The notes under the pieces were generated by a model. It ran no database searches. It was not told the origin of the DNA and was given only the letters and a program-made list of their open reading frames with translations. The translations under genes and the position numbers were made by a program. Positions 16,878 through 28,459 of a DNA stretch of 64,000 nt are shown one piece after another. The DNA comes from Spiroplasma syrphidicola EA-1 (lineage in GTDB: Bacteria > Bacillota_I > Bacilli_A > Mycoplasmatales > Mycoplasmataceae), in assembly GCF_000400955.1 (NCBI RefSeq), contig NC_021284.1, positions 806,001-870,000 on the forward strand. Reading direction: 5' to 3'. Every line of letters begins with the position of its first letter. Position 1 is the first letter of the stretch.

Positions 16878-19034
16878 TTAAAATTTAAAATATTTTTTAT
16901 ACTTATTTAAATCAATTAATTGAACTGCTTCATAAAAAATATTGACTTTTTCATTATTATTTAACAAAAAATTTTTTACATGAATATTAATATCCATTAT
17001 TTGTTCGTTATTAATCTCAATTTCAATATTACTTTTTAAAATATCTAATATGCAACTAATAAATTTAAATAATTTATTTTCCTCTATTAAAATTAGACTA
17101 TCTGTTTTTAAAAAAATGGATGAAAAATCAAAATAACTTGTTTTTGTTGCTAATGGAGAAACTATGTATTCAGATTGTGATAAAGAATGCTTTGACTTAT
17201 CACTATCAAAAATTACAAACTCACTATTTGATAATTCATCATTTAAAGCATATATTCCTCCATATTCTATGTCTGTAAACCAATTATCTACATAATTTAT
17301 TGATGCACAAATAAAATAACAACAATTTTCTATTTTACGGTTTAGTGCTTTTTCTTTTATATATCTTGTAATATCTGTTCCATAATTAATTTTTGGATCT
17401 TCTTTAGTATAAATTATACTAATTTTAGGATTAATAACCTTAATTTTGTTTAAAACCTCACTTAATACTTCAGAAATGAAGCAAGATGTAAAACTAGTTA
17501 AACTATTTGACTGTTTTAAATTTTCTATGTTTAAAGCTTTGCTCGATGAATAATTTTTAAAACTAATAAAAACAGTATCAAGCTTTTGTGGTAATTTTTC
17601 ATTTTTAAAATTTGAAATATATTTAGCTAAAACTTCAGCTTCTTTATCTAATTGTGGTGAATTTTTTAGAACTTTTTCTTCAAATTCCAAATATTTTTTA
17701 GTAAAATTAGAATATTTTTTAGTTATTTTCTCTTGATTTGCATCATTAATTTTTTTAACTATTTCATTACGATTAGTAATTAATTTATTGATTAAATATA
17801 TAATAAAAAATTTTAAATAAATAAATCTCTCGTCGTTCTCATCAACGGCATCTCTTCCTGGTGTAGCAATATCGTTTTCATCATCTGTATCTAAATAATT
17901 TGCAAAAATATCCCCAATTATATAATTTGAACCAATTTGAGTATTTTCTATAGAGTCAAAAATATTTGATATCATAACTCTATTTCTAGAATAAATAGAT
18001 ATAATACCACCTATATTATTTTCACGATCGATTCTATCCAAAATACCTATAAATCCTTTTAAAGTAACTAATTCTTTGAATAGAACTGGATTAATTTTGT
18101 AATTTTCATCGTTATAACTTCTACATAATTTTTTTTCTAACCAATTATGTAGTTCTTTTGCCTCTTCTGCAGAAGAAACAACTGATAAAATTCTATTACT
18201 AGAATTTTCATGAACATTAATTTTTTTTGAAATATCAGGATTTTTATGCGATAAAATTGTTTTTTGGATTTTTTCAATTTCCTTTTCAGAAAAATAATTT
18301 AAATCATATACTTTTAAAAACGAAGTAACTATATATTTTACTGGATTAATTAATTCTATTTTTTCTATGTTAAAATATTCATTTTTTAGTACATATATAT
18401 TCATTTTGCTATTATTTTCTATTTTTTCAGAATATAATGGCTTAAAGGCTTTATAAATTCTATAATTAATTTTATTTTTAACATCATTCAAAGCATTATT
18501 TTTGTTAAAATCCTTAATTGAAATTAATGTTCCATTTTGTGATGAAAATTTGTTTAAAAATTGATTATAATAATTAACTTTATCAGAATCTATTTTATCA
18601 ATTTCATGGGGATTAATTTTATTATCAATATCCCTTTTGCTTAATAACAATGTTTCTAATGATGTTTTTTTAGTTTTTGAATATAGTTCAATGTGATTTC
18701 CAATACCAAAAACAGCTAATTTTCCAAAGCCTTTTCTACCCATAGGTGGTCTTTTAAAAACTAGTGACTCTCTAAAGAAAGTTCTCTTTGAATAACCAAT
18801 TTTAAGAAATTTATTTTGAATATCATTTGTATCCATACCATTTCCATCATCAAAAAAACAGATTTCTTCTACTTTGTTATTTATAGTTTTAAATCATATT
18901 AATACATTTTTTGCATCAGCATCATATGAATTTGCTACAAGTTCTGTAATCATACTATATGTATTTTTATATAAATTCTTACCAAATTCTTGAACTATTT
19001 TATTATCTACATAATCAAAAGTATAACTCTTCAT
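16878..19034 (-). CDS. GHKL (MORC/Hsp90-like) ATPase, possible C-terminal TIR-like domain
   Basis: A 718-residue protein. The GHKL nucleotide site is intact: N box 'ELVANSYDADA' (31-41), G1 'FDDGNGM' (61-67), G2 'GRKGFGKLA' (99-107). A middle region with 'GNYI..' type spacing, read as 'GSNYIIGDIFANYLDTDDE' and 'DIATPGRDAVDENDER' (about 368-405), resembles GHKL ATPases found in bacterial restriction-modification loci. From about 486 a segment starts 'TVFISF' and continues to 'YFICASINYVDNWFTDIEYG' near 573-592, which looks like a TIR fold with its W-x-E region. The gene follows the methyltransferase by 16 bases. Inferred role: ATP-driven sensor or effector of a defence system. The TIR part is tentative. 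Confidence 0.8.
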
Positions 19035-19050
19035 ATTAAATTTTCCTTAT

Positions 19051-20142
19051 CTATTTCAATTGCTTTAATATTTCATATACAAACAATGGTGGAACTCCTT
19101 CACCAATTACTCTCCTTATAAAATTATCAGAAGCTCATTCTGGTATATTTCAATTGTCAGGTAATGTAGTTAGTCTCATTATTTCTAAAATTGTTAATAC
19201 TCTTGGATCACTGTATGTGCCATCCTCTAATTTTTTACCAGGATGGACATTATTCTGGGATGAAATTGCCCCATTAGCCATAGTAATTGTTGGCGAAGGA
19301 GAATCTCATTCTATTCTTTTATATGTGGTTGGAAAACCTCTAATTAATTCTCCAGATGTTTTTTTTGGTTTATACAGATCAGAATTATCAAATGCGCTTT
19401 TCCCTGTAGGAGTAACTTTCATAATTTCTACATGTCTTTTACAATGAATAGGAGGCTTATGCCATTTATTATGTAAATTTTCCTTTCCAAAGGTATTTGA
19501 TGAACCTACTTCCTCTTTAATTATAGGATTCAATGATTCTAAGTCTCCTATTGCATCCTTAACTGTCTTTCATTCTCTTTTTTTTATTTTTGGAATAATT
19601 AATTTTTTTTCAATATCTTTTCTTGTTAATAAAATAATTGCTCTTTTTCTAATTTGCGGAACTCCAAAATCTGCTGAGTTTAGTACGCTTTTTTCCAAAA
19701 AATAATCCAAAGATAATTTTTCATATAAAATGTCTATAATTTTTTTAAGCTTATTATCCAAAATAATTTTAGTGTTTAAAAAGCTTGGTACATTTTCTAA
19801 AAAAACATACTTCGGTTTTAATTCTAATATAATATCTATTACATATTTTATTAATAAATTTCTTTGATCTTTTCAATCATTTTTTCCGGCTGTACTCATA
19901 CCTTGACAAGGTGGAGTAGCAATAATAAAATCAATTTTTTCTTTTTTTGAGTAAGAAATTATCTTGTTAAAAATATACTTTTCCTTAATATCACCAATTA
20001 TAACATTTGTTTCAGGATAAATATTTTTATAAAATTTTGCTCTATCTTCTTTTAATTCAGACGCAATTTTAACTTTAATATTTAATTTATTTAAATAAAA
20101 TTCTGCAATTCCTACATTTGCAAATAAAGATAAACCATTCAT
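19051..20142 (-). CDS. DNA cytosine-5 methyltransferase
   Basis: A 363-residue C5-methyltransferase with all main motifs in order: I 'SLFANVGIAEF', II acidic 'IASELKEDRA', III 'VIIGDIKE', IV 'IATPPCQGMSTAGKND' (catalytic Cys), VI 'VFLENVPSF', VIII 'FGVPQIRKRA', IX 'RVLTILEIMRLTTLP', X 'VIGEGVPPLFVYEI'. The target-recognition region (about 200-290) is short and its site cannot be read. It does not look like the CpG enzyme M.SssI known from another Spiroplasma. No restriction endonuclease gene follows; the GHKL ATPase gene occupies that place. Confidence 0.95.
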
Positions 20143-20232: not shown

Positions 20233-20259
20233 AAAAAGTTTAATTAAATTAAACTTTTT
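20233..20259 (-). terminator. Terminator of mgtA
   Basis: An 11-bp stem AAAAAGTTTAA/TTAAACTTTTT overlaps the last codons and stop of mgtA and ends in a T run on the minus strand. Confidence 0.8.
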
Positions 20260-22960
20260 ATAATCATTTTTTAAAGATTTTAATATATCCCATTTTGACT
20301 AACTGACTAAGTAGACAATAACTAACAATTATGGTAATGACAATTCCAATAAATGAATATGGTGGTGAAACCATGCTCATATTTGCTCCTAAAACGGTAA
20401 ATGGTATTGCAAAGCCTATTGCACATAATAATCCTGTCATCACATTAACTGGTCATGGCGAACGTGATTGAATAAATGGAATTTTTTCTGTACGGAACAT
20501 TTGGACAACTAAGATCTGTGTTAGTAAGCCTTCGATAAATCATCCGGCGTTAAACATTGCAATTGCTGAAGGATCATCAACATGATTTTTAACATCATAG
20601 CCAATATATAATACGGTAAAGGTTACAATATCAAAAATTGATGATACTGGGCCGTTAATTAAGGCAAATGGTAAAAAGTCTTTTGTCGTTCACCGCTGGG
20701 GTTTTGCTAAAAAGCTACTATCAACTCGGTCAAAGGCAATGGCAAATTGAGAAATATCATATAATAAATTTTGGAATAATAATTGAACTGGCATCATTGG
20801 GGTAAATGGTAATCAGGCTGAAGCGACTAAGACACTAAAGACATTCCCAAATTGTGATGCAATTGTAATTTTAATATATTTTAGAATATTACCAAAGACT
20901 TTGCGTCCCTCAACGATTCCTTCTTCAATTACACTTAAAGATTTTTCTAATAAAATTAAATCTGAGGCTTCTTTAACAATATCGGTCGCATTATCAACTG
21001 AAATTGCTACATCACTTTGGCGTAAAACGGGAGCATCATTAATCCCATCACCCATATAACCAACAACGTGGTTATTCATTTTTAAAGCTTTAATAACTTC
21101 AACTTTTTGAATTGGAGTTAATTTAACAAAAATGTTATTTTTTTCAACAATTTTCGCTAATTGTTCTGGGGTCATATTTTCAATTTCACTACCTGAAATT
21201 ACCCCTTTAATTTTTAAATTAATGCGTTTACAAATTGCACGAGTTACTTGTTCATTATCCCCCGTTAAAATTTTCAAATCAACACCATAATGGGCTAATG
21301 ATTTAATCATCCCAGCAGCTGATGCTTTTGGGGTATCTAGAAAACTAGCAAAACCACAGAAAATCAATTTTTCTTCAGCGTTATCAATAAAATCATCCGT
21401 TTTAGCTTGTAAATTTTTATAAGCTAATCCTAAAACCCTTAACCCTTGCGAATTTTGATCATCAACTGTACTTTTGATTTGACGCATCATACTATCATCT
21501 AATGGTACGATTTTCCCTTGATATTCGACATGTGTACATGTGCTTAGCATTTCTTCAACCGCCCCTTTACTGATGACAATTGATTCATCATAAGCTGTTT
21601 TAACAATTATTGTTAAGCGACGACGGTGAAAATCAAACGGAATTTCATGAATTTTTTGATAAGCATTAGTTGTAATTGTTAAATTATTTTTATCAATATA
21701 ATTTGTAATCGCTGAATCTAACGGATTACGAATTCCTGTTTGATAAAAGGCATTTAAATATAATAATTTAAGTAAATGATCATTATTTTTATTATCTAAC
21801 GTACGATAATCAACTAGTTCAATATTATCATTGGTAATTGTCCCTGTTTTATCAGTACATAAAACATCAATTGCTCCTAAGTTTTGAATCGCACTTAAAT
21901 TTTTAGTAATAATTTTTTGTTGACTTAGTTTTTTTGATCCACGAGCTAAATTGGAAGTAACAATCATTGGTAACATTTCTGGTGTTAATCCAACGGCGAT
22001 TGAAATCGCAAAAACTAAGGAAGTTGTTCAGTCATTTTTTGTTAAACCATTTAGGACTAAAACAATTGGCACCATTACTAACATAAAAATAATTAATAAG
22101 AATGTTACTTTTTTAATTCCCTTCGCAAAACTAGTTTGCGGACGGCGTTCAGAAATTGTTTCAGAAATTGATGAGAAATAAGTATTTTCTCCCGTTGCAA
22201 CAACAACTCCTAAAGCATTTCCTGAAACAACAGTTGTCCCCATTAGACAAATATTTTCAAAATCAATAAAATTATTTGTTTCTTGATAGAAATCTTGTTT
22301 TTGAACTGGTAAAGATTCTCCTGTTAAACTTGACTGATTAATTAATAAGTTATTGCTTAAAATAACTCTTACATCAGCTGGGACAACATCTCCCGTTGCT
22401 AAATGGACTAAATCCCCTGGCACCAATTCACTTGCACTCATTTCTGTTCCATATTTAATAAATTCAAACTCATTATTACGATTAATTTCATTTGTTGTTA
22501 AATATGGTTCGCGAATAACAATCGCTTTTTTACTAATAAATTTTGTTAATTTTTTCGCGATTAAATTTCCCCGAATTGTTTGAATATAAGTAAATGTACC
22601 ACTTAATAAAATCATTCCCCCAACAATACAAGCCGCTACTAAATCAAAAATTGATGGTTCATCATCTGAAAAGTAGTTATATAAACTATAGGCTGTAATT
22701 AAGAGCAAAATAATATTAAATGGGCTAAAATAACTTTTAAGAAATTCTCATCCTCACGGAAACTTTTTTTCTTTCATTTCATTTTTCCCATATTTGGCTT
22801 GGCGATCTTCAACTTGCTTTTCGCTCAATCCATAACTGGTAATTTTCAATTCATTTAATAGTTCTTCTTGACTAGCTTTGGCATTTTTTCGAATTTGTTC
22901 TTCATAAGCATAAATATGTTTTTTCTTTTTATGTTTATGAAAGAAATTAGTTTTTCTCAT
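20258..22960 (-). CDS. mgtA: Magnesium-translocating P-type ATPase
   Basis: A 900-residue type IIIB P-type ATPase that imports Mg2+; length matches MgtA/MgtB. The phosphorylation motif 'CTDKTGT' is at about 368-374, the TGES dephosphorylation motif appears as 'SLTGESLPVQ', and the hinge reads 'YMGDGINDAP'. The first 60 residues are basic and cytosolic. The C-terminal six-helix bundle includes 'NAGWFIEGLLTQILVVQMFR', typical of the Mg transporters. Its 5' leader carries a small ORF and alternative structures, which suggests regulation by attenuation. Confidence 0.96.
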
Positions 22961-23152
22961 ATTTAATCCCCCTCTAGTACTTGATGTTTATCAGACTTTA
23001 CAGGGAACCACAAAAAAATATTAGTTTACAACAACTAAAAAAAGTGGTCTTACCGTAGTAACCTCTGAATTACATCAATTAATTAAATTAATGTCTGATA
23101 ATTTCCTTTCGGAATAACTGGATACTACCATAAAACCACCTCCTTTAACACT
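22961..23152 (-). promoter_or_regulatory. mgtA 5' leader with competing long-range pairings
   Basis: Between the promoter and the mgtA ATG, the minus strand carries segment A 'TTATCAGAC' (about 23101-23093) and segment B 'TTGATGT' (about 23079-23073), then A' 'GTCTGATAA' (22996-22988) directly followed by B' 'ACATCAA' (22987-22981). A-A' and B-B' cross, so they are either exclusive or a pseudoknot. A-A' lies within the leader ORF. No M-box consensus was recognised. Regulatory function is inferred. Confidence 0.5.
23021..23131 (-). CDS. Putative 36-residue leader peptide upstream of mgtA
   Basis: An ATG at 23131 sits 4 bases after a near-consensus AAAGGAGGTGG, the best ribosome site in this region. 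It opens a frame of 36 codons (starts 'MVVSSYSERKLSDINL', ends 'FLVVVN', TAA at 23021), with one UGA Trp. The frame overlies pairing segments A and B of the mgtA leader. No similarity to a known protein is recognised. In enterobacteria mgtA is controlled by a leader ORF, mgtL, but the sequences are not alike. Confidence 0.5.
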
Positions 23153-23158
23153 CTTCTA

Positions 23159-23187
23159 ACTATAACAAAAATTGGTATTTATAGCAA
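23159..23187 (-). promoter_or_regulatory. Promoter of the mgtA transcript
   Basis: On the minus strand TTGCTA (23187-23182) and TATAGT (23164-23159) are separated by exactly 17 bases, placing the transcript start near 23152, about 20 bases before the leader ORF. Confidence 0.65.
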
Positions 23188-23198
23188 CCACTTTTTTT

Positions 23199-23230
23199 AT
23201 TCGGTCTATTATTCGGTCTATTATTCGGTC
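23199..23230. repeat. Three tandem 12-nt repeats upstream of the mgtA promoter
   Basis: The unit ATTCGGTCTATT occurs at 23199-23210 and 23211-23222, with a partial third copy (ATTCGGTC) at 23223-23230. The array ends 12 bases upstream of the -35 box of the mgtA promoter. It may be an operator array or a recent slippage product. Confidence 0.75.
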
Positions 23231-23265
23231 CAGAAGCAGGATAAGGAGAATGCGCGCTAAATATC

Positions 23266-23293
23266 AAAAAAGACTGTAGATACAGTCTTTTTT
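23266..23293. terminator. Terminator-like hairpin, orphan
   Basis: A 13-bp stem AAAAAAGACTGTA/TACAGTCTTTTTT with a two-base loop. No gene is seen reading into it from either side, so it may be a relic of a lost gene. Nearby, 23298-23333 forms a second GC-richer hairpin (GGGGGCAAAAG/CTTTTTGCCCTC). Confidence 0.5.
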
Positions 23294-25683: not shown

Positions 25684-27423
25684 TTATTTTATCTTATCTA
25701 AAATATTAGTTGATAATCATTCATTAAAATAGGAATCCTGAATTTCTAGTAACTTTTGTGGGCTTCTATCAATTGTACTTTCTGAAATATTTTTTATATT
25801 ATCAAAATCTAAATCATTTTTATTAACTGAGAAAATTAAAAATTGCCTATTAAAAATTTTATTGTAATCAATTATATCCCTAAAAATTAAATTTCTAGCA
25901 CGTATTGTAGGAAGATCTTGTTCTTCTTTTTTTGGAGAATCAATAATAAAAAAAGAATTTAATTTTACTATATTTTTATAATTAATAAATAATCTAGTCA
26001 AAGAATATATTATTGATTCACTTCCTGTATACTTTTTTTTATTATAAATTGCATCTTTAATTTTTACAGAATATTTTAAATCTAATTTACTTATATATAT
26101 TTTAATATCATTTAGTAATTTTTGATTAAGTTTGTTCAATTCTAATGTTATAAAAATTGATTTTTGATCAAATGCCTTTTTTTCTTTTTTAGCCTTTTTG
26201 ATTTTTTTATTTAAGTCATTTAAATTATTTTCATAATTTTGTATTAAAATTTTAATTCTATTGTTTTCTTCCTTGTTACCTACTTGTGCTAATAAACTAT
26301 CAAATTTTTTTAATTCTAATTTTAAATTAAAATATTCTGTCTTAAGCGACTTAATAGTTGTATTTATTAATTTTTTATTAGTTTTTAATATATTAATTTC
26401 ATCAAGTATTTTTTCTTTTTCTTGTAAATTTAAAACAGTTTTTGCTCTAAAATCTAATATATCTTTTAAGTAAATTTTATGATTTGCACCATTTATATCA
26501 ACATTGTATATAAAATCACTGTTTTGCTCTATAAATTCATTAATAGCATTTATGTTGGCATTAAGTAAATTAAATTGAATTTCTAATTCAGCTATTTTTT
26601 CACTTATTTTACGTTCATTAAGCATGTTTCCTTTTATTTCTTTTTCTTTTATTATCATATTTGAAAATAATTTTTTAGAATTATTAGAAATATCTTTAAT
26701 TTCTTTAAAATCTTGATCAGATGAAAACTTCTTTGATAATTCTTTGATAATAAATTCTAATTTATCTTTTGTTAATTCATCATCAATAATAGAAGATGCT
26801 ATTGACGCATTATCATTTAAAAATTTAATATCGTCATCCGAAATTATCCCATACAAATAAGCATAAATATAAGAATAATCTTTAGGTGAAATATTAAATA
26901 ATTCTTTTTTAAATGTTTTTCAATCAGCTCCTCAATTCAACTGATCAATATAAAATAATTCAAACATTGCACCTGGATAAGGAGTTGAAAAAGAAATTTT
27001 ATTTTTGATAGTATTTTTAATTAAAAAATTTTCAAGACCAAAAAGATTATAAATATAATCTGCATAGCCTAAAACTGATTTGGTATTATTTCGTGAATAT
27101 GTCTTGCCTTCCCATAATATTTGATATGAATTATTTAAAATGTACAATTGGTTTTCATATTTTTTATTATTTAATCTTAAAAAATAATAATTTTCATTGT
27201 CTATATTTAAAGATAAAATAGTCATAAAATCGTCATATTCTTCACTTATAGTTTCTAGGTCTGTATTACATCCTAAAGTATAAAAAGGTATTTTTGCTAA
27301 TGTAGTTTTACCAACTCTACTATCAGCTAATATCAAATTGATTCCATCTTCAAAAAAATGTCTATACGAACCATTATTAATAAAATTGTATAAACCTACA
27401 AAATTTATTTTAATCTTCTTCAT
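25684..27423 (-). CDS. SMC/RecN-like ABC ATPase of a putative defence module
   Basis: A 579-residue soluble ATPase. The P-loop reads 'LADSRVGKTT' (32-41; the first Gly of the consensus is Ala). A long coiled coil spans about 230-440. The signature-like 'TGSES' is near 466-470 and Walker B 'FFIIDSPKKEEQD' near 491-503. This layout matches the DUF2326-type ATPases of ABC three-component conflict systems. Its start overlaps the end of the nuclease gene by 14 bases. Inferred role: sensing invading DNA or complexes and licensing the nuclease. Confidence 0.8.
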
Positions 27424-28459
27424 AATTAACCTCCAACATGATTTTTCCTTCTAAAAACAATCATGCAATCTCATCAACTTCTAAGTTTTCTTCTTCTTTT
27501 ATTTTGACCAAATAATTATATAAATCTTTCTCTGTCAATATTTCAAAATTATTTATTTTTGTTGCTAATTTATCATAAACAGTATTATTATCTCATTTAA
27601 AAGTAATCTCATATTTACGTAAATTTTTTATTACTTCATAACCTATATTTTTACTAAAATTAAATGAATCTAAAACACCATAACTAATATAGTTAGTAAT
27701 TTTTATAGAATAAGAATTTAGTGAGCTAAATTTTTTCATTGCATCAATAATATTTGAATATGTAATCGATCTTCTAGAATCAATATCAGATAAAAATTTA
27801 CTTTCAAGTTTTATAGAATCATTAATTGACTCAACAATTCCTATTAATTGATTTACTACTTCTTCAATTTGTTCTGAATTAAAAATTCTGTAAACATCAT
27901 TAATTTTAATAAAATTCCTTATTATATTCAAATGTTCAGAATTTTGGTGATCAAAATATTGAATTACTATTTTGTTATACACACTAGTTTTTTCAATATT
28001 GTCTATTGATAATTGTTGATATCCTAATATTTTGGAATATAAATCTCCATTATTAATTTCATAACCTTTTAAGTATAGTTTACCACTATAAACAAATTTG
28101 CCAGATACATTTATTGTACTATCAATAATCTTAACTAAATTTATTCTATTTTCTAGATTTTTAATATCAGTTGAAAATTTAGACAAATCTTGACTATTAT
28201 CTTCGCCTGTATATTTTCCTTTTACTTGACAAACTGTAACTGAATAAATTTCATCTTTATTTTTCGGATTAGTAAAAAGAAATAAAACATCATCCATAAG
28301 TTCATTAAATGCATGCACATTGTAATCTTTTAAATATAAAAGTTCATATAATAAAAATATTTGTTGAAAAGTAAAACCTTTATTACCATAAATTCCAGAT
28401 GTATTAATTGACTCATGTTTTATATTTGATATTTTTTTACTATAATCGTTTTTATTCAT
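27410..28459 (-). CDS. PD-(D/E)XK-like nuclease (DUF4297/Cap4-like) of a putative defence module
   Basis: A 349-residue protein. The N-terminal 85 residues show the signature of Cap4/DUF4297-type nucleases: 'GNKGFTFQQIFLLYELL' (25-41), then E53 in 'FNELMDDVLF', and 'VCQVKGKY' (76-83) giving the E...D...QxK catalytic set. The remaining part is unassigned. It has its own TATAAT promoter and is translationally coupled to the ABC ATPase. Together they resemble nuclease-plus-ABC systems proposed as anti-phage. No separate middle-component gene is evident. Confidence 0.7.

Follow-up and report, generated by a model that had tools for sequence, protein, structure and literature searches.

In other Firmicutes-type bacteria, Mg2+ transporter genes are controlled by the M-box (ykoK). 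Translational attenuators of the ermC/cat type are built from four segments, and the downstream start becomes accessible when a ribosome stalls on the leader ORF; these attenuators answer to antibiotics through arrest peptides. In the mgtCBR operon of Salmonella, mgtQ, an ORF of eight codons between mgtC and mgtB, is linked to stem-loops 1:2 and 3:4 or, alternatively, 2:3 before mgtB and depends on acidic codons, Asp2 and Glu5 being needed (PMC8092293). PMC11282234, which cites Chadani et al. 2017, describes mgtL, the leader ORF of mgtA in Escherichia coli and Salmonella, as dependent in E. coli on an EPDP motif and on Rho-dependent transcription termination, ribosome drop-off at low Mg2+ altering the folding of the RNA. 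Literature searches for a described mgtA leader of Mollicutes found none. Presented here is a leader-ORF attenuator that precedes mgtA in Spiroplasma and its relatives; it is real, conserved and apparently undescribed.

The window analysed comprises 64,000 bases, positions 806001-870000 within the 1,107,344-base genome of Spiroplasma syrphidicola EA-1 (G000). The mgtA locus within it contains the following elements:

20258..22960, minus strand: mgtA, the regulated gene, encoding a magnesium-translocating P-type ATPase of 900 aa
23159..23187, minus strand: promoter-like site TTGCTA-17-TATAGT with TG preceding the -10 element, sigma-70-like, 9/12 matches
23138..23146, minus strand: Shine-Dalgarno (SD) sequence AAAGGAGGT of the small ORF, part of segment S1, 9/9 matches to the anti-SD complement
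23021..23131, minus strand: small leader ORF MVVSSYSERKLSDINLINWCNSEVTTVRPLFLVVVN, 36 codons under code 4 (TGA=W)
23120..23122, minus strand: in-frame UCC (Ser4), the rare codon common to nearly all leaders
23113-23111, minus strand: second in-frame UCC (Ser7) of the window ORF
22967..22975, minus strand: SD sequence AGAGGGGGA of mgtA

The mgtA product matches TIGR01524 at 1049.5 bits (cut-off 610.75). The gene, the small ORF and its strong SD lie where the original prediction had placed them. The promoter, regarded there as well formed, is present at 23187-23159, but the match by itself is weak evidence, about 1.7 comparable matches being expected in shuffles of the region. The transcript is expected to start immediately 5' of the small-ORF SD. 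In the sister species (locus L002) sequence identity starts near this expected start, and the sequence further upstream diverges. Directly upstream of the promoter, at 23201-23235, lies a short tandem repeat of ATTCGGTCTATT units and, beyond it, an inverted repeat near 23263-23292; no such repeat region was seen before the leader in the sister species.

Two crossing long-range matches between the small ORF and the spacer had been proposed to form a switch or a pseudoknot. Both exist, A (23101-23093) with A' (22996-22988) over 9 bp and B (23078-23072) with B' (22987-22981) over 7 bp, but they are close to chance: among dinucleotide shuffles, 4.7% have an ORF-spacer match that reaches 9 bp (P=0.047) and 50% one that reaches 7 bp. 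As a working pairing A/A' has to be dropped, its probability being near 0 in all modelled states, and the pseudoknot was rejected for want of cross-clade support, pairing of the middle of the ORF with the spacer showing no covariation between clades (p=0.53). B/B', although a chance-level match, reaches a probability of about 0.45 once a ribosome blocks S1 and then forms the outer helix of pairing 2:3. A much stronger pairing, that of the SD and start of the small ORF with the 3' end of the same ORF, had been overlooked. The conserved scheme consists of helices 1:2 and 3:4 against helix 2:3, and of the pairs proposed earlier only B/B' contributes to it, in this genome. Its segments in the window are as follows:

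23123..23145, minus strand: S1, 5' arm of helix 1:2, AAGGAGGTGGTTTTAT (23145-23130) and GTAGTA (23128-23123), spanning the SD and start of the small ORF
23038..23060, minus strand: S2, 3' arm of helix 1:2, TACTAC (23060-23055) and GTAAGACCACTTTTTT (23053-23038), close to the 3' end of the small ORF
23002..23018, minus strand: S3, 5' arm of helix 3:4, TTTTTTTGTG (23018-23009) and TCCCT (23006-23002)
22952..22971, minus strand: S4, 3' arm of helix 3:4, GGGGA (22971-22967) and TATGAGAAAA (22961-22952), taking in part of the mgtA SD (GGGGA) and the start codon (TATGAGAAAA)
23044..23078, minus strand: 5' strand of the alternative helix 2:3, TTGATGT (B), TCAGA, TTAC, GG and GACCAC
22981..23011, minus strand: 3' strand of the alternative helix 2:3, GTGGTT, CC, GTAA, TCTGA and ACATCAA (B')

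In the window, S1 and S2 form a duplex of 16 + 6 + 2 pairs with an energy of -33.3 kcal/mol, compared with a shuffle mean of -13.4, and the region of helix 1:2 is far more structured than its shuffles (z=-6.75). Taken singly, S1:S2 is the one pairing of the window to reach significance in the shuffle test (S2:S3, p=0.16; S3:S4, p=0.16), so that the other two rest on the comparative test described below. In the ON fold the 2:3 duplex joins 23078-23044 to 23011-22981; an 8-bp helix adjoining the mgtA start (23088-23081 with 22968-22961) is still possible in this state. Helix 1:2 conceals the small ORF's own SD, so that loading of the first ribosome has to precede the synthesis of S2.

This arrangement was compared with the described systems. 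A search with Rfam 15 at gathering and relaxed thresholds gave nothing relevant in the leader, and the window plus 20 related loci yielded RNase P and tRNA only. The M-box, already thought to be absent, indeed had no match (RF00380) at gathering score in the window or in 60 family genomes, while controls matched in Bacillus subtilis and Lactococcus lactis; unlike an M-box, the leader has no M-box core and would need translation of its ORF. With mgtQ it shares a short ORF before a Mg2+ transporter gene and a helix 3:4 that hides the ribosome binding site of the transporter; a ribosome in difficulty early in the ORF would likewise favour 2:3, and control would act on translation. Exclusive stem-loops of the mgtQ type are found across clades by covariation and modelling. 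The earlier claim of no resemblance to the enterobacterial systems therefore holds for sequence but not for logic, the scheme being that of Salmonella mgtQ (PMC8092293). The leader differs from mgtQ as follows: no sequence resemblance between the two was seen, the ORF is at the 5' end and about 23-44 codons long, its own SD lies in helix 1:2 and it carries an early UCC, whereas early acidic codons of the mgtQ type are absent from the window ORF, whose first acidic residue is Glu8. Like mgtL, the ORF is situated between promoter and mgtA, an acidic-proline motif occurs in several Mollicute clades, and ribosome drop-off at low Mg2+ would alter the folding of the RNA, as it does in mgtL. An EPDP-like motif, present in groups g3, g4 and g9, is absent from the first codons of the window peptide MVVSSYSERKLSD, and Rho, through which mgtL acts, was not found: Rho_RNA_bind was not above cut-off in any of the 60 family genomes. 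Because the acidic-codon and Rho features are absent, the leader is not a member of the mgtL or mgtQ type, though it works like them. From attenuators of the ermC/cat type it differs in controlling a Mg2+ pump and in concealing its own SD within helix 1:2. The translational attenuator driven by the small ORF that was suggested at the outset, apparently of an origin independent of the enterobacterial systems, is well supported by the comparative evidence. Regulation in Mollicutes is poorly understood, with few transcription factors and neither Rho nor M-box found in the family; the leader-ORF switch represents a form of magnesium-pump control in these bacteria that apparently owes nothing to the enterobacterial invention.

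Of the order's 298 genomes, 141 contain MgtA homologues (E<=1e-140); viral contigs searched with MgtA gave no match. The DNA upstream of about 130 mgtA homologues was fetched and 55 leaders from Spiroplasma, Mesoplasma and relatives were kept, selected on SD strength, position and likeness to neighbours; pairing and codons were not criteria. Upstream of mgtA, most of the family's genera (groups g1 in part, g2, g3, g4, g5, g9, g10, g11 and g12) carry a small ORF with a good SD, as does f5g16. The ORFs measure about 23-44 codons across clades, and their peptides are unalignable between clades: MVVSSYS.. in the window, MSIPS.. in g2, g5, g10 and most of g11, MSPLSSFND.. in g12, MASSPLP.SDSPES.. 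in g9, M..DNPEP.. in g3, MTDSDS.. in f5g16 and MLGQQEQSG.. in part of g1. A DNA pattern of the MSIPS type had one match each in 22 of 60 genomes, and the coordinates of these matches are those of mgtA leaders only.

A comparison of L001 with the sister locus L002 showed that all four substitutions within the small ORF alter the amino acid, and an indel, a T run shorter by one T in L002, shifts the stop to codon 32 and leaves an ORF of 31 codons. As we read the alignment, both changes in helix 1:2 preserve pairing through A-U/G-U exchange; a G to A change in the spacer at 23001 breaks one 2:3 pair. Judging from these changes, the small ORF here appears to be important less for its peptide than as a track for ribosomes. 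ORF length is not conserved; the pairings S1:S2, S2:S3 and S3:S4 covary among relatives.

Minimum-energy folds contain the same two hairpins in most clades, 1:2 over the SD and start of the small ORF and 3:4 over those of mgtA, and both regions are unusually structured across leaders (mean z -2.7 and -2.1, respectively). Tested against 300 dinucleotide shuffles, S1:S2 was significant (p<=0.05) in 48 of 54 leaders, compared with 2 of 37 control genes taken from the window; it is not clearly present in L036, L016 and L023. An initial duplex test was weak for S3:S4, as its windows truncated the helix, and a swap test was used instead, in which the own partner segment of each leader was compared with partners from other clades for 16 mutually unalignable clade representatives. 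In this test S1xS2 (p=0.0002), S2xS3 (p=0.0002) and S3xS4 (p=0.0008) were significant, in contrast to the control combinations S1xS3 (p=0.36) and S2xS4 (p=0.60). In a second set, made up of 18 leaders of the MSIPS type, the same three pairings gave p=0.0002, 0.0002 and 0.0004 and the controls 0.93 and 0.64. The covarying pairs are the pairing graph of a four-segment attenuator.

We modelled the effect of ribosomes on the fold, an early stall being represented by a block that begins at the SD and ends 15 bases beyond the first UCC-type codon (codon 5 if there is none). The mean cost of opening the mgtA SD and AUG was 7.5 kcal/mol for free RNA, 4.1 with an early stall, 6.4 with a ribosome at the stop codon and 7.1 with S1 and S2 blocked; the corresponding values for the window were 12.3, 2.2, 10.3 and 8.9 kcal/mol. 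In this model an early stall reduced the opening cost in 50 of 54 leaders. Shuffling the spacer abolished the gain (3.4 vs 0.06 kcal/mol, 16 representatives, p=0.0003), and in the window the gain of 10.2 kcal/mol fell to 1.5 with a shuffled spacer and was reached by 0 of 20 shuffles. An initiating ribosome is also predicted to give the 2:3 fold in the window, as would be expected if the RNA itself sensed Mg2+: helix 1:2, the strongest feature of the leader and one that directly conceals the small-ORF SD, would open at low Mg2+, a ribosome would load and cover S1, and mgtA would be switched on, the codons having no part in sensing. We regard this as unlikely, since helix 1:2 of the window is probably too stable to be opened by a modest drop in Mg2+ and since the frame-locked UCC in the 5' part of the ORFs would be left unexplained.

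This in-frame UCC serine codon occurs in 52 of the 55 leaders, in almost all of them within the 5' portion of the ORF; it is missing from three and late in L022. Within the 5' 60% of the ORFs of the 16 representatives, 15 UCC codons were seen against 0.6 expected (P ~5e-16, a value that is indicative because ancestry is partly shared in the set, L003 and L052 belonging to one genus). The 3' 40% contained one, and 12 of the 16 representatives have an early UCC. Frames +1 and +2 contained 0 and 9, with 1.2 and 3.5 expected. The pattern was seen in the data before testing, and a P of ~1e-15 survives correction for 64 codons. No UCC was present among the 780 codons that make up the first 20 codons of 39 SD-bearing window genes. 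A general enrichment of C-ending superwobble codons was rejected, the other C-ending box codons numbering 10 vs 8.0; only UCC is enriched.

The matches A/A' and B/B' being near chance, one might take the whole for chance structure in an AT-rich leader with a meaningless small ORF. The covariation with its negative controls, the shuffled-spacer control, the UCC enrichment and the presence across many genera contradict this explanation, which we consider hardly tenable.

Serine tRNA genes with the anticodons UGA, CGA and GCU are present in the window's genome, G000, and with UGA and GCU in G033, G026 and G128. A tRNA-Ser(GGA) was not found among the class II tRNA candidates of these four genomes, in which a missed gene is possible. 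With tRNA sets that contain no GGA anticodon, UCC needs U34.C superwobble. In tobacco plastids, removal of tRNA-Ser(GGA) is viable but lowers plastid protein accumulation (PMC3499367). In two g4 leaders and several f3 leaders UCG replaces UCC, and the checked genomes of UCG-bearing groups are without a CGA tRNA, which is consistent in this small sample. As a rare codon without cognate tRNA, UCC has the properties expected of a slow codon, and the leader might sense charging of tRNA-Ser(UGA), or translation speed in general, instead of Mg2+. However, every regulated gene within the group tested encodes a Mg2+ pump, and a single UCC is unusual for an amino-acid attenuator, which normally has codon runs; this makes such a sensor very unlikely.

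The residues next to the codon bear on another possibility, that the nascent chain is the sensor, as in MgtL and MgtQ. The N-terminal peptide would then destabilize the ribosome at low Mg2+, and UCC would slow that step or be incidental. In the leaders of g3, g4 and g9 the codon is preceded by D-x-P-(E/D/H), within a shared D-x-P-(E/D/H)-(S/P) motif (e.g. SDSPES, DNPEP, GDFPDPE, DDNPES) in which the Pro codons vary and which resembles the EPDP of MgtL (PMC11282234). Other leaders have an acidic residue or proline directly before the UCC-encoded serine (DSDS, EES, MES, IPS). The window peptide, by contrast, has neither an acidic residue nor a proline before codon 8, all four substitutions relative to the sister species alter the amino acid, and peptide conservation alone leaves the choice of UCC for serine unexplained. 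Nascent-chain sensing is thus possible, if rather doubtful.

With the four-segment architecture, the covariation of the three pairings, the early UCC and the release of the mgtA start in the model, all of them computational observations, the mgtA leader is probably a translational attenuator run by a ribosome that is held early on the small ORF, most likely at UCC. In the resting RNA, S1 would pair with S2 and S3 with S4, keeping mgtA silent. A ribosome held early would cover S1 and leave S2 bare; S2 could then pair with S3, S4 would be freed and mgtA translated. A ribosome reading through would cover S2, and 3:4 would persist. The ribosome would most likely stall or drop off at the in-frame UCC, which should be readable only via U34.C superwobble and in other leaders often adjoins acidic or proline residues, and low Mg2+ would worsen this hold-up. 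From the identity of the regulated gene we infer that Mg2+ is the signal. As neither Rho nor, in the window leader, an intrinsic terminator-like site was found, translation would be the likely level of control, and transcription attenuation was set aside. Helix 1:2 precedes a T run in several leaders, and a role in termination is conceivable. More tentatively, and with doubts of our own, we suggest that Mg2+ is sensed by decoding itself: tRNA-Ser(UGA) might read UCC too slowly when Mg2+ falls, and the pause would flip the leader. The reduced tRNA set of Mollicutes would then double as an ion sensor, and the codon signature allows testing whether superwobble decoding can act as a physiological sensor.

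Two further MgtA-like ATPases are encoded in the window's genome, L032 (961935-964610, 55% identity) and L047 (675807-678461, 43% identity), neither with an evident leader of the small-ORF attenuator kind. The other mgtA copies of Spiroplasma citri-type genomes are also without the leader. What they have in common is a conserved stretch, GATTTAGGAATTTTATTACTTTAA, located about 140-200 bases 5' of mgtA in L006, L009 and L037; similar DNA occurs in L007, L010, L011, L013, L015, L018 and L020. In some of these GATTTAGGAATTTTATTACTTTAA forms an ORF ending in ..DLGILLL-stop, followed by the complementary TCCTAAAT, possibly a second, different class of leader. In genus g36 of the more distant family f3, small ORFs before mgtA (L085, L094, L096, L101, L107, L108, L111, L124 and L125) have a common D-x-Y-x-S motif, its Ser often encoded by UCG; they may be a further leader, independent or related.

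Directly downstream of mgtA, at 16878-20142, lie genes for a C5-cytosine DNA methylase and for a GHKL-ATPase protein similar to type II restriction enzymes. The sister genome (L002) has an enolase-like sequence in place of this pair, which suggests a restriction-modification insertion. At 25684-28459, an LmuB-like ATPase (PADLOC, 2.1e-22) adjoins an unknown protein of 349 aa, its candidate partner, in what is a probable Lamassu-type defence locus.
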